Shown here piece by piece: positions 13,898 to 31,353 of a DNA stretch of 64,000 nt. The position numbers and the translations under genes were made by a program. This DNA is from Diplocarpon mali. Its lineage: Eukaryota; Ascomycota; Leotiomycetes; Helotiales; Drepanopezizaceae. Positions within the stretch are counted from its first letter, which is position 1. Each line of letters opens with the position of its first letter. The stretch covers positions 1-64,000 of the forward strand of contig JAENRP010000258.1 of assembly GCA_024741835.1 (NCBI GenBank). Direction: 5' to 3'. The notes below the pieces were generated by a model that saw only the letters and a program-made list of their open reading frames with translations, did not search any database and was not told the DNA's origin.

Positions 13898-14445
13898 ATG
13901 ACAATGTCCGTCACTTTACACACAAACCTCGGAGATATCAAGGTCGAGATCTTCTGCGAGAGTGTGCCAAAGACAGCAGAGGTATGCAATTCGCAATTCG
14001 AAACTATTCTTGAAACAAACCTAACATCCTTCAGAACTTCCTCGCTCTATGCGCCTCGGGCTACTACGATGGCTCCCTCTTTCACAGGCTCATCCCGAAC
14101 TTCATGATCCAAACCGGAGCCCCTACTTCTCAGCCAAAGGGAGGCATATCAATATGGAACGAGCCGTTCGAGGACGAGATCCGGCCTACCTTGCGACACA
14201 ACGCCCGAGGTATTATCAGCATGGCGAACAAAGGGCCGGGAACGAACGGCAGTCAGTTCTTCATCTGCTTTGACAAGGCGCCGCACTTGGATGGGAAGAA
14301 CACTGTGTTTGGACATGTTCTAGGCGATGAAAGCCTTGCGACACTGGCGAAGATGGAGAAAGTCGAGGTGGATAAGAAGAGCAGACCGAAGGAGCAGATC
14401 AAGATTGAGAGCATCACTGTACATGCGAATCCTTTGGCAGGTTGA
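13898..14445 (+). CDS. peptidyl-prolyl cis-trans isomerase, PPIL3/Cyp10-type cyclophilin, 164 aa
   Basis: A single cyclophilin domain fills the protein. Exons are 13898-13981 and 14035-14445, with a 53-nt intron (GTATGC...TTCAG). It begins MTMSVTLHTNLGDIKVEIFC; PPIL3 proteins start at the second Met (13904), so that start is equally possible. The domain shows FHRLIPNFMIQTG, then the FEDEI stretch and GPGTNGSQFFICF, with Arg in the RLIPNFM block as catalytic arginine. PPIL3-type cyclophilins associate with the spliceosome in animals; that role here is inference. Length is normal for the family. Confidence 0.92.
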
Positions 14446-15206
14446 AACGACGTTCGAGGAGGTCTAAGATGATCTGCATGATACCCATGAGGCAATGCGG
14501 CCAGGCAAAATACGCCAAGCATAAAGACGGCTCAGGATGTGCTCCAGACCACAGCGGTATGCCACCGAGTATGGAAGCAGCTTGGGCAGAGAAGCGAGAG
14601 TGTATGGAGATGAGGCGGATTGGAGGCAAGCCGATATTGACGCTCTTCGTAAAGCGATCTCACATAGCGTCAGCACGCGCTGGACAGTACAGATCAATTA
14701 GAAAAGTATAGTTGTAGCGAGCAAGGTGTTAAGCTATAAATACAGGATAGTCAAAGCTGTTGTCACTGACAGTCCGAAGGCTTGAATTGTCCCACACACC
14801 CATCGCAAGTAGGCAAAAGCCGAATTGCATAACCCCTAGACTAAACGATGATGCATTATTACAAGTGTTGGACACGAACCTTTCGCTCAAGGGAGTATTC
14901 AGAATCCTGTGTAAGTCAGTCTTGCGACTACAAAACTCTATTTGTATAAATTGTAGGTCCGAGGCGACTTGGACAACGCGCAGCTTTGTAGCGCGGGGTC
15001 GAATCCGCGGGTCCCAAAACGCTATTGCAGCTTGCTCCCCAAAGCGGCAATAAGATAAGAAAAACTACGCAGGGGCTCACCAACGCTGTAGTGTCTCGCT
15101 TAAATCACCCAGAATTCTTTAAATCAGACCCACGGCCATGGGTCCTAGATATGGGCAGTTCTTTTCTCGTGTGTAAAAGGAAAAAGCCGCATAGCAAAAA
15201 GCATCG
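14446..15206. other. intergenic stretch with a tRNA-like fragment
   Basis: No protein gene is recognised. Near 14950-15010 a plus-strand fragment has a box-B-like GGTCGAATCC in a short CGCGG/CCGCG stem, preceded by a D-arm-like GGCGACTTGGACAACGC. No matching acceptor 5' strand or proper anticodon arm can be drawn, so it is at best a tRNA relic. Confidence 0.4.
15196..15200 (-). terminator. Pol III T-run terminator of tRNA-Leu
   Basis: Five T residues on the minus strand begin six bases after the tRNA discriminator base, with a second T5 run about ten bases further. This is the normal RNA polymerase III stop signal and suggests the tRNA gene upstream is transcribed. Confidence 0.8.
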
Positions 15207-15358
15207 TGAGACCCGTGGGATTCGAACCCACGCCATTTCTGACTGCGGATCGTTATGGGTGCCTTGCGGCTACCTAAACACAGCGCCTTACTGGATGAAA
15301 GTCAGTGCGGGCCTGGCACTTTCTCCTTGGAGTACTTACACCACTCGGCCAGAGTCCC
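15207..15358 (-). tRNA. tRNA-Leu(UAG) with an anticodon-loop intron and a second D-loop insertion
   Basis: The 5' acceptor strand GGGACTC pairs with 3' GGGTCTC (two G-U pairs), followed by discriminator A. Box A (TGGCCGAGTGG) and box B (GGTTCGAATCC) are intact. The T-arm is GTGGG/TTCGAAT/CCCAC. The anticodon stem CTGTG/CGCAG carries the loop TTTAGG...C with anticodon TAG at 15274-15276. A 24-nt intron at 15249-15272 sits after position 37, where tRNA endonuclease substrates normally have it; yeast tRNA-Leu(UAG) also has one. The variable arm is a short TCA-GAAA-TGG hairpin. In addition, 49 nt interrupt the D-loop (15291-15339); without them the D-arm reads GCCGAGTGGTTAAGGC, the usual Leu/Ser form. 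Total gene 152 nt, mature RNA about 79 nt. Confidence 0.88.
15291..15339 (-). other. 49-nt insertion in the tRNA D-loop resembling a spliceosomal intron
   Basis: The insertion begins with a perfect donor GTAAGT, contains CACTGAC, a typical filamentous-fungal branch site, 11 nt before its end, and finishes in CAG. Its length matches the many 44-60 nt introns of this window. The pentamer GTAAG occurs at its start and again across its 3' boundary, so the cut could also be placed as a 48-nt insertion flanked by a 5-bp direct repeat. That it is spliced by the spliceosome is inference; tRNA endonuclease is not known to cut in the D-loop. Confidence 0.65.
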
Positions 15359-18059
15359 ATATTCTGACCATTCAGGAATGACATTTCTGCGATATACTGT
15401 TAATCAAACCCGACGGTACGACTTACCGGCATCTTCCGGCTAGCCAATCGTGGGATCTCAATCGTGGGCGCTATGTCGTTCGCTTACAGCTTACAGCTTC
15501 TCGTCTGAGTTGGTCGGTACGTAAAGATCAAGGTATAGCGCAATATTCAGTAGGCCATCTTGCTTCAATAGCTACATAGAAGTGGTAATAGTGTTGTTGC
15601 TTGCAATTGGATGCGAGGTAAGGGAACAAATGTTGAACTGAACTCTCCTACATGCTGATATCTACTTGGAACAGCAACTCTCCCCCAATTATGTCAAATC
15701 ATCCAACACCTAGCAAGTAGCAATCTAGGAAAGCATCTAACCTTTTGCTCTTGTTACAGGATAGCTGCGACGCTGCCGTGTCTCCCACGTTAACATACCA
15801 AACTTGAAGCAGGAAACCCCTGATTTCCTGTCTCTATGCTTGGTCAAGTTCCACGATAGCGTGCAATCACTTCCGAAATCACCGGAGATGCAAGAAGTTC
15901 GGCTCTGTCATCAGGCCGCGCCTGAATCTTGGCCTGGTCCAGGAACGCTCTGAGCAGAGTCATCTTCAGGCATTACTGCTCACTCCAACTGGCAAAGTCT
16001 AGCTAGACAATGGACGCTTACCAGCCACTTGGTCATTTAGACAGATAAGCCCTTCCTATTCAACCCTTGCCGAGGTATCTACAGACCAATGACAAAATCT
16101 TGCCCATCCAAGCCAGGACTGTCCCCGTAGTCGTGCATCCATCCCGAGTCAGACTCTCTTCTCTCCATTCCCACCGGAAATTCACCCACTACATCTCTAA
16201 TACGACCTAGGGTCTGGTTATGAGAGAGCGGATCGATTTTGCCAAGTTTTTGGATATACAATGGCGACCTCTACTCCCGCAGGAATTCATGACGGCCGCG
16301 CTTGGAAAACCCATTTCCCATATCGCATATGTTCCGTGTATTTTCCCTGCTGAGCGTCAATCATCACGTCATACTCTACATGGAAATGGTTGCCAGATAC
16401 TGGATTGTTGGGGTTGAAGGGGTTGTTGATACACGGTATATCTTGATGCTGTGCAAGTATTAGCGAGGCAACTATTACACCCTTCAAAGAGGTTTACTCG
16501 GGCTCTGTTGAATGTCAGGTAAAGTGTGCTGCATCGGATGTTGACTCCCATAATGTGTTTTCGGTTTGTAATCTCGTCGTCCATTGAGTGCCTAGCGAAG
16601 CATTAGAGCTTTGAAGAAAGGTCTGTCGGTATGCGATCAAATATGGAAGCAAAGACTAACGCGAGATTATGCTTCAATTCGAGTTCAATTCGATTGTATT
16701 TATAACAAGCATCCTAGAGGCTGGAGCTTTGTTTGGAGAATATTTATTCCGAGTTATAGCTTGGGGGGTTCCGGGGAAGGGGGGGCTAAGGTCCTAATGA
16801 AGCCAAGGCAATTGCTCACATTTTTGTGGCTGCAATTGCAGCTTACACTTTGTGTGCCGTACGCCGTGTGAATCTCTGCAAATCTCCGTGTCTGCAAAGA
16901 GGTCGGTAATGGAGGGAAATGCAAGGCTGAACTGTATCACCAATACCACCATTGTCGGGTCCAATCATGTGACAATTTCGACATGTAGCCAACACCAGGC
17001 GTGAGAGGGGGTCAGAACAAGCAGCATAATGCCGAGGTTTATCGGCTTCGTTCAGTTTATTTGCTAACCAAAGTCCTGCTTGTGAGTTGAATGCCCCTGA
17101 TTTTCGAACAAAAGGGGAGGCTCGATAAGGATGAACGAAAAGTACAACTTCAATGGCTGGAGTGAAAAGTTCGATGTACAGAGCCACATACACATTACAA
17201 ACACTCCAAATCAAGTTGCAGCTGAATCTTTTGTTCACTGCCCCTGAAATACGTTTCCGAGCTGCTTGGACAAGCAAAAGGTGGCTTTCCCTACATACGT
17301 GAGATTTCTGGCCCCGAAGCCCACGCATTGATAGAGCTTGGGTTATCAGGCAACGAAACGCATGATCAGACTGAATCTCATGTGCTGAGTGCTTTGGGAA
17401 GCCAAGTGCCTAAGAACTACTTCTTACCACTCTGTATATACGTGCAGATCTTACCAACAGGACAGTGATAACAAGTCTTGCTTAATAGTGAGACCGCTGC
17501 TCCTCCGATTGCAAGCAGAGGACACGAACTAACAGGGTAGCCATGAAGAGGCAGACTTGAGTAGAACTCGTTAACCATTTCAGCATACGAACAAGTAATA
17601 CCAACGATCCAATGTGGGATACAAAATACACAGGGACGGGACTGCGGAATCTGATCCTAGAAACAGAAGAAGAATTCGTAAGAGACTTAGGGATCAGAAA
17701 TCAGAATGCATTACAAAGCCGGTGTAAAAATTTGGATTTAATAGGAGATACTTTGGGCAAGAATTGGGTAATCACAAATTCGATGCAACTCAGTTTAAAA
17801 ATTAAAACTTTTATAGATTTAATAATGTTAGCGTTGACGTACAAGATAAAAAAGGATTATTTTGATTACAATGTTTGAGAGAGGTGCTGGAATACTTGCC
17901 ATCAAAGCTGACACATCAACAGAGAAAAGTGCTGGGGCACTTCGGATAAACACCGGCGGTAATCGAATAAGCGGCGGCGCAAGGCTAGAACTGTCAAGAA
18001 AATAAATAAGTTTCAGCCTTTACCTACGCAATACGATTTCTCTCCACGATATCAACTCG
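15359..18059. other. AT-richer, gene-poor stretch
   Basis: No recognised gene apart from the weak candidate at 16287-16584. An 88-codon plus frame at 17612-17878 lies in distinctly AT-rich sequence and has Lys/Asn/Ile-rich codon use unlike the neighbours; it may be chance or a relic of a mobile element. No terminal repeats or transposase motifs were found. Confidence 0.4.
16287..16584 (-). CDS. possible small two-exon hypothetical gene, 82 aa
   Basis: A frame starting at 16584 (MDDEITNRKHIMGVNIRC) runs to a GTAAAC donor. A GCTAATAC branch-like site and an acceptor TTGCACAG follow, joining in frame to HQDIPCINNPFNPNNPVSGN and a stop at 16287-16289. The splice geometry (49-nt intron) is good. 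The product matches no family I know and the region is AT-rich, so this may be a real orphan gene, a fragment of a longer gene, or chance. Downstream frames on the same strand (16079-16261) could be further exons. Confidence 0.3.
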
Positions 18060-29488: not shown

Positions 29489-31353
29489 ATGGACCCCGCA
29501 TTGAGAGAAGGGCAAGGCTTGCGAATTGCCGTAGAGGGTTGTGTAAGTCCCGGAGCTTCGTGTCTTCTCGAGTATCGGTCTTTAACTAGTCTTTCTTCTT
29601 CGCAGGGTCATGGTACGTTGGATGCCATCTACGCTTCTGTAGGTAAAGCCTGCAAGGTCCGGGGCTGGGATAGTGTTGATCTTCTCATCATCGGAGGTGA
29701 CTTTCAGGTATGTCCTGCGCACAATACTCAGGAGCATCGCTCACATACCTAGTCCGTACGAAATGCCTCCGATCTCACTGTAATGTCCTGTCCGGTCAAG
29801 TATCGAGAAATCGGAGACTTTCATGCATATTACAGCGGCGCGACAAAAGCGCCATACCTTACCATATTCGTTGGAGGTAACCATGAGGCAAGTAGCCACC
29901 TATGGGAACTGTTCTATGGAGGGTGGGTAGCTCCAAACATCTACTACATGGGAGCCGCGAATGTTGTCCGGCTAGGAGGATTACGGATTGCGGGCATGTC
30001 AGGAATCTGGAAGGGATATAACTTCAAGAAGACACACTACGAACGATTACCATACAGCGAAGACGATATCAAGTCAATTTACCACGTTCGAGAGATCGAT
30101 GTTCGGAAATTGCTGCAGCTGAGAACACAGATTGATATTGGAATAAGCCACGACTGGCCCAGAGCGATTGAGAATCACGGCCATGCAAAGTCCTTGTGGT
30201 CCATGAAGCCTGACTTTGAACGGGAATCGAAGGAAGGTACATTAGGAAGTCTCGCGGCGGCTTATGTCATGGATCGTCTGAGGCCGCCTTACTGGTTTTC
30301 TGCTCATATGCACTGCAAATTTGCCGCGATCAAGACTTACGAGGCACCGAACTCGAATGGTGCTCCGGCTCCAGCTCCGGCTCGGGCTCTCATATCCGGC
30401 CCCCAAAATACAGTGCAGCCAGTGACTTTGGCAGCTCGCCACAACTCCGATGAGATTGACCTTGACATGGACGAAGAGCAGCTGCCACCGGCTCAGCCTG
30501 TCGCGTCGAACAGGGCAGCCGTTGCCAATCAAGACGAGATCACATTCGACGAGGACGAGGACGAGCTAACAGACCATGTGCATGGTGTAGGCGCTGCGTC
30601 CCATCAGGGCGAGATCTCCTCGGAAGATGCCGACACGCCCAGGTCTGCTCCCGTATCCTCCGTTTCTTCGGAGCTGAGAGCGCAGCTACCTGCAGCATTC
30701 TCGAGACCGGCTATCCCTTTGATGCGCGCAGGCGTGGAGCCCAAGATACCTGCTGACATTACCAACAAGACGGTTAGATTTCTAGCATTAGACAAGTGCC
30801 TCCCCCGGCGCAAGTTTCTCCAATTGCTCGAGATCAGGCCTCATGGAGAGGTCGGGAAGTCCGCATCCATGGATGGTCCCCGGCCCAAACCGGAGTTTGA
30901 ATATGACCCGGAGTGGCTCGCTATCACCCGAGCTTTCGCGTCCCATATGATCTTTGGAAGCAAGAGTGCGCGCACTCCGGAAGATCTTGGCGAGGCCAAC
31001 TACCGACGCCTGATTGAGAGAGAACAAGCCTGGGTGGAAGAGCATGTTGTCCGGAAGGGGAAGCTAGGAATTCCCGAGAACTTTAGCCCGACAGCCCCGG
31101 TTTTTGTCGTGGGGACGCCGGCGATTGTGGAGGATGGGCCCGTTGAATACAACAATCCGCAGACGCAGGAGTTCTGCGACCTGCTCGGAATGGAGAATCA
31201 ATTCTCCTCCAGCGAGGAAGAACGACAAGAGAGGATGAGACGGGGGCCGCCGCCTCTCGAGCGCCGACACGACGGCGGAGTGGGGGGCAGAGGAAGAGGT
31301 GGTCGTGGAGGTCGGGGAGGTCGGTCTGGGGGCGGACGAGGAGGGGGGAGAGG
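29489..31353 (+). CDS. DBR1: RNA lariat debranching enzyme Dbr1 (3' end lost in gap)
   Basis: Hydrolyses the 2'-5' bond of excised intron lariats. Exons are 29489-29542, 29606-29707 and 29753 onward, both introns in phase 0 (donors GTAAGT and GTATGT). The joined N-terminus reads RIAVEGCGHGTLDAIYASVG then LLIIGGDFQSVRNASDL. Metal-binding motifs of the metallophosphoesterase fold are present: C-x-H in GCGHG, GGDFQ, GGNHE, SHDWP and SAHMH. The Dbr1 C-terminal domain follows (FLALDKCLPRRKFLQLLEI), then an acidic linker and a Gly/Arg tract that runs into an 83-base gap. The frame beyond the gap looks non-coding, so the true stop probably lies in or near the gap. At least 600 residues are visible. 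Confidence 0.93.

Follow-up and report, generated by a model that had tools for sequence, protein, structure and literature searches.

Putative spliceosomal introns at nine sites in the nuclear tRNA genes of a member of the Helotiales

The textbook division of RNA splicing gives the spliceosome to Pol II transcripts and an endonuclease and ligase to tRNA. Ordinary pre-tRNA introns lie at a fixed site between positions 37 and 38 and are removed by these two enzymes. Introns of the mRNA type are also found in the U6 snRNA genes of some fungi, which resemble the genes described here in that an intron of spliceosomal type interrupts a Pol III transcript, and differ from them in that a single RNA species is affected rather than ten isoacceptors. 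The rDNA of the lichen fungus Cladonia grayi contains short mRNA-type introns (57 nt in the one tested) that are removed by the host splicing machinery (PMC8527467). These introns likewise lie outside Pol II genes and within a non-coding structural RNA, but they are part of Pol I transcripts, whereas the inserts described here occupy nine sites in Pol III-transcribed tRNA genes of a fungus related to plant-associated Helotiales. Non-canonical introns are known from nuclear tRNA genes of the red alga Cyanidioschyzon merolae and, as in archaea, where they may interrupt the D-arm or T-arm, they occur at sites other than 37/38 (PMC3400036). The archaeal introns are marked by a bulge-helix-bulge, in contrast to the inserts in our genes, which have splice sites and a branch motif and no consistent bulge-helix-bulge. 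A search of the PMC literature listed no title reporting spliceosomal introns in tRNA genes.

The window analyzed here, a stretch of 64,000 nt, is contig 258 of a genome assembly of 49.4 Mb in 676 contigs. Among the best 120 of 3398 matches to the ZPR1 protein encoded in it, those of Drepanopeziza brunnea and of Diplocarpon rosae are 89% identical and that of Cadophora gregata is 87% identical, which places the host among the helotialean ascomycetes, close to these genera. The tRNA-Leu(UAG) gene runs from 15358 to 15207 on the minus strand, a detail that the original prediction did not give. The Rfam tRNA model RF00005 fits exactly 15207-15358(-) and scores 30.5 bits, where the gathering score is 29; its alignment has 51 additional letters in the D-arm and another 27 in the anticodon arm. 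The gene was not reported by a scan of the whole window at the gathering threshold with fast filters, nor was it seen by ARAGORN with bacterial settings. ARAGORN does not call the intact gene, but when the 49 nt at 15291-15339 are removed it calls tRNA-Leu(tag) and a 24-nt intron in the anticodon loop. The predicted tRNA-Leu(UAG), carrying both a 49-nt D-loop insert and a 24-nt intron after position 37, is confirmed.

The gene is otherwise built as a nuclear tRNA gene, with a tRNA fold by ARAGORN once the insert is left out, both internal promoter boxes and a terminator. Exon 1a (GGGACTCTGGCCGAGTGGT, 15340-15358, minus strand, as for all features of the gene) provides the 5' strand of the acceptor stem, the 5' strand of the D-stem and the start of the D-loop. 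It contains an intact Pol III box A (TGGCCGAGTGG, 15341-15351) immediately upstream of the insert. The insert is a candidate U2-type spliceosomal intron of the form GTAAGT...CACTGAC...CAG, with a candidate 5' splice site GTAAGT at 15334-15339, a branch-site motif CTGAC at 15301-15305 and a candidate 3' splice site CAG at 15291-15293; the branch-site A at 15302 is 11 nt before the intron end. Its removal is predicted to join GCCGAGTGGT to TAAGGCG. Exon 1b (15273-15290) comprises the remaining D-arm, the 5' strand of the anticodon stem and the anticodon TAG up to position 37. It is followed by the ordinary anticodon-loop intron (24 nt, 15249-15272), which is of the tRNA endonuclease type and not GT..AG; this intron is at 37/38, the position of endonuclease introns, and the 49-nt insert is not. 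The last exon (15207-15248) provides the 3' strand of the anticodon stem, the variable arm, the T-arm with an intact box B (GGTTCGAATCC, 15218-15228), the 3' strand of the acceptor stem and the discriminator A. The acceptor stem has seven pairs, five of them Watson-Crick, and a T5 run at 15196-15200, the Pol III terminator, begins 7 nt past the gene. All the elements listed in the original prediction, from the promoter boxes, the paired acceptor stem and the terminator to the three splice signals, were found.

The mRNA introns of the same window offer a direct comparison. Seven of them, two in a Rho GTPase gene, two in DBR1 and one each in Vps24-like, SPP1-like phosphatase and arrestin-like genes, are 45-73 nt long and GT..AG. 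Their 5' ends read GTAAGT, GTATGT or something close, and YTVAY lies 9-20 nt from the end; Rho and DBR1 introns were placed by homology, the rest from the reading frame and the known sequence of the family. The 49-nt insert matches them in size and signals, as expected of the typical small fungal intron that it had been taken for. The DBR1 gene, at 29519-31192, encodes the lariat debranching enzyme; the N-terminal part of the product is 47% identical to an animal DBR1. It lies 14 kb from the split tRNA-Leu(UAG) gene, which is probably a coincidence. Self-splicing introns were sought with Rfam; neither the window at the gathering threshold nor 14000-16500 up to an E-value of 10 yielded a match to an intron of group I or II. 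With 49 nt, the insert is also too short for the catalytic core of a group I or II intron.

The tRNA-Leu(UAG) gene is one of 11 among 55 tRNA genes examined in the genome that carry a second insert. These extra inserts, 48-65 nt long, occupy nine sites within the tRNA and affect ten isoacceptors, Met twice; the position numbers given here follow our own reading of the clover leaf. The D-loop is interrupted after position 20 in the Leu(UAG) gene of the window (49 nt) and at the same place in Leu(CAG) (L085, 54 nt), and elsewhere in the third Ala copy (L048, 50 nt). The insert of His (L096, 51 nt) is in the D-stem. Gly(CCC) (L098, 48 nt) and Ser(UGA) (L045, 49 nt) are interrupted after position 9, and Lys(UUU) (L047, 65 nt) after position 8. 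In the 3' half, inserts are found in the variable loop of one Met gene (Met1, L043, 49 nt), just before the T-stem of Leu(UAA) (L061, 51 nt), in the T-stem of Tyr (L049, 59 nt) and inside the T-loop of the other Met gene (Met2, L114, C27:112060-112230, minus strand, 50 nt), where box B itself is split. The variable-loop insert of Met1 and the T-loop insert of Met2 are separate gains within one isoacceptor family. Every split gene has an anticodon intron in addition except Ser(UGA), in which the extra insert is the sole intron.

The sample of 55 consists of 49 Rfam matches less two (L026, a mitochondrial-looking Lys, and L050), that is 47, plus eight others (the window gene, L061, L084, L085, L096, L098, L112 and L114). 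The count of split genes is a lower bound, as the RF00005 genome search tends to pass over split genes; it scored 63 of 2443 candidates and missed the window gene. A box B pattern found 30 loci, of which 13 were identified as tRNA genes, three of them split. A gapped box A-box B pattern, whose 12-letter box A misfits Leu and whose longest gap of 105 letters falls short of the 112 of Met1, gave six sites, none readable as a tRNA. Two loci left out of the count, the Lys-like L050 (C13:15845-15933, minus strand) and L111, have tRNA-like 3' halves without 5' halves that we could find; they are perhaps further split genes or pseudogenes. Among 5S rRNA genes, 20 of 23 matches were above the cut-off (47 of 1960 candidates scored), and all 20 are 119-120 nt long without an insert.

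All 11 extra inserts are GT...AG, a count that is not blind because the inserts were partly recognized by their own signals. In ten, CTRAY is present with its A 10-14 nt from the 3' end; Met2 has TTGAC at 10 instead. When the 11 inserts were shuffled, 0.3% of the shuffles had GT..AG, 3.4% had CTRAY in place and 0.009% had both. A blind test of the boundaries is provided by seven genes in which the cut is set by a paralogue of the same or a sister isoacceptor in the same genome that lacks the insert in question, with 16 to 19 of 18-19 junction letters identical. The placement is unique and GT..AG in four of these; the remaining three allow two or three placements each, one of which is GT..AG. 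The product of (placements/256) across the seven is 2.5e-16. We therefore reject a chance origin of the signals on the basis of the shuffles and the paralogue-fixed boundaries, and an assembly error on the basis of 11 different inserts. The anticodon introns of the same genome, delimited by ARAGORN, served as controls and, unlike the extra inserts, are never GT..AG (0 of 36); CTRAY is found 9-15 nt from the end in 1 of 36.

ARAGORN returns the expected tRNA after removal of the insert in all ten complete genes; Met2, the available piece of which lacks the 3' end and gives a blank result, is excluded from these ten. In a removal scan, ARAGORN accepted 9 sites for GT..AG and 3-8 for seven control dinucleotide pairs, mostly in the same genes among those listed, so the program alone cannot set boundaries and the scan is weak evidence. 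Judged by length and signals, the tRNA inserts (48-65 nt) are of the same make as the mRNA introns of the window. The 49 nt in Leu(UAG), a Pol III tRNA gene, are very probably a U2-type spliceosomal intron and part of a group of such introns that nuclear tRNA genes of this helotialean fungus have gained many times. The mRNA-type intron in a nuclear tRNA gene that was originally proposed for this locus now has the support of ten more genes, seven boundaries set by paralogues and anticodon introns free of the signals.

Extra introns of the archaeal or red-algal type, which the tRNA splicing endonuclease would cut at a relaxed bulge-helix-bulge, have a nuclear precedent in the non-canonical introns of C. 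merolae (PMC3400036). The Ala and His inserts (2 of 11) also each have one placement that yields a full 4-bp central helix. No placement yields such a helix in the other 9 of 11, Leu(UAG) reaching one of four central-helix pairs, and the two full helices arise among 24 placements, for which about 0.5 are expected by chance. Since a bulge-helix-bulge would also leave GT, AG and CTRAY at fixed distances unexplained, we regard endonuclease cleavage of the extra inserts as very unlikely. The original prediction took the endonuclease to cut nowhere but in the anticodon loop; a red alga is a known exception (PMC3400036), but the present genes show no consistent endonuclease motif.

Many insertions of similar length within one genome could alternatively represent a mobile family, such as an introner or a small transposon ending in GT..AG, that is not necessarily spliced. 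However, the 11 inserts have only 7-8-nt matches in common, which indicates separate introns rather than one such family. The whole Leu(UAG) gene matches only itself in the genome at an E-value of 0.001, in contrast to the near-identical genomic copies that define introners, and 4 of the 11 inserts have a single possible placement and hence no duplicated target letters. A mobile family of this kind is extremely improbable on this evidence.

If the 49 nt are a spliceosomal intron, the Leu(UAG) gene would be transcribed by Pol III from its internal boxes, and U1 and U2 would recognize GTAAGT and CTGAC on the uncapped pre-tRNA, from which, still in the nucleus, the spliceosome would excise the 49 nt. 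Folding of the D-arm and the tRNA core would be possible only after this excision. The unspliced RNA is predicted to fold no better than shuffled sequence (z -0.82). RNase P and the tRNA endonuclease recognize the tRNA core, which cannot form when the D-arm, variable loop or T-arm is split, so the spliceosome likely acts first. End processing would come next, and the tRNA splicing endonuclease and ligase would then take out the 24-nt anticodon intron. On the best reading of the sequences, some tRNAs of this fungus would need the spliceosome and usually the tRNA endonuclease too.

The position of the insert relative to the promoter boxes varies between genes. The insert of Leu(UAG) begins directly after box A and leaves box B whole, so it should have little effect on transcription by Pol III. 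Where the insert follows position 8 or 9, as it does in Gly, Ser and Lys, one box A letter is changed by our reading, and in Tyr the last G of the intron serves at the DNA level as the initial G of a good box B. The inserts of His, Ala L048 and Met2 split one of the two boxes and should thereby make Pol III transcription less efficient, and these copies may be weak or dying. Downstream of three tRNA-Ala genes (L024, L025 and L048, at +14/15) and of His L096 (+28) there is another hairpin that resembles a T-arm and contains the complete box B consensus, which reads CTCGGTTCGATTCCGAG or close to it in the Ala genes. Such a second hairpin accompanies 4 of 49 T-arms in the sample and is possibly an external promoter box.

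The three split promoter boxes would be expected if the inserts, whether introns or intron-like, resided in redundant tRNA copies that are now pseudogenes, working insert-free copies having been missed. Sister genes without an insert do exist for Ala and Leu(CAG), and our genome searches give lower bounds. However, in every complete gene the joined exons are still read as the expected tRNA, and we found no insert-free Leu(UAG), Met, Tyr or His. A copy of Leu(UAG) without the insert elsewhere in the genome was among the counter-evidence suggested in the original prediction, and a BLAST search with the joined exons returned this gene only; as a first look with BLAST omitted known Lys(CUU) relatives, the absence of insert-free copies means that none was found, again as a lower bound.

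Both elongator Met genes found by BLAST are long, with inserts at different places, as are all three Tyr and both His genes; of these seven, four were established as long by sequence and three by coordinates (Tyr C55, Tyr C52 and His C203). One further Tyr match spans the whole query across 152 nt and another consists of two pieces 76 nt apart, ending at the GT and starting at the AG of the query intron, while the second His match spans the whole query across 145 nt. The second Tyr (75% identity) and the second His (74%) align over the whole gene, insert included. They have diverged yet remain full-length, as expected of old maintained genes, and a set of dead copies is an improbable account of the inserts.

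For functional, spliced genes the question is whether the cell depends on them. Leu(AAG) bearing inosine can read CUA, so Leu(UAG) may be dispensable, and the case for dependence is stronger for elongator Met, Tyr and His. It is likely that the spliceosome is an obligatory tRNA-processing machine in this fungus: elongator Met, Tyr and His, and perhaps Leu(UAG), Leu(UAA) and Lys(UUU), would have no spliceosome-independent gene, and all protein synthesis would depend on splicing, with two successive systems. Genes that need both would show the spliceosome working on very short uncapped Pol III transcripts, in which the first exon may, leader aside, measure only 8 nt. Such genes would also be natural settings in which to test how splice sites are recognized when CTD and cap are absent, in what order a tRNA matures, and how small structural RNAs gain introns despite clear structural constraints.

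Split genes of this kind also affect annotation. Given the ten complete split genes as they stand, ARAGORN missed five (Leu(UAG), Tyr, His, Gly and Lys), assigned a wrong anticodon to two (Ala and Leu(CAG)) and gave the right anticodon with wrong boundaries for three (Met1, Leu(UAA) and Ser), so that tRNA annotation goes wrong in such genomes. The published totals for Marssonina brunnea (119 tRNA genes) and M. coronaria (136) were obtained with tRNAscan-SE, a program that would be expected to overlook split genes.

Two further sequence elements were noted during the searches. About 190 nt past the 3' end of the tRNA-Leu(UAG) gene, on the opposite strand (14911-15016), GTAAGT...TTGTAG precedes GTCCGAGG...GGGGTCGAATCCGCGGGTCCCA, and a box-B-like core is present; this stretch has no Rfam match, and a 5' half was not found by eye. 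The box B pattern also picked up a dispersed repeat at L090, L093, L102, L103, L105 and C110:126914, which looks like a transposon fragment and whose box-B-like core reads GGTTCAATTCCTTTAGTTTCC or nearly so.
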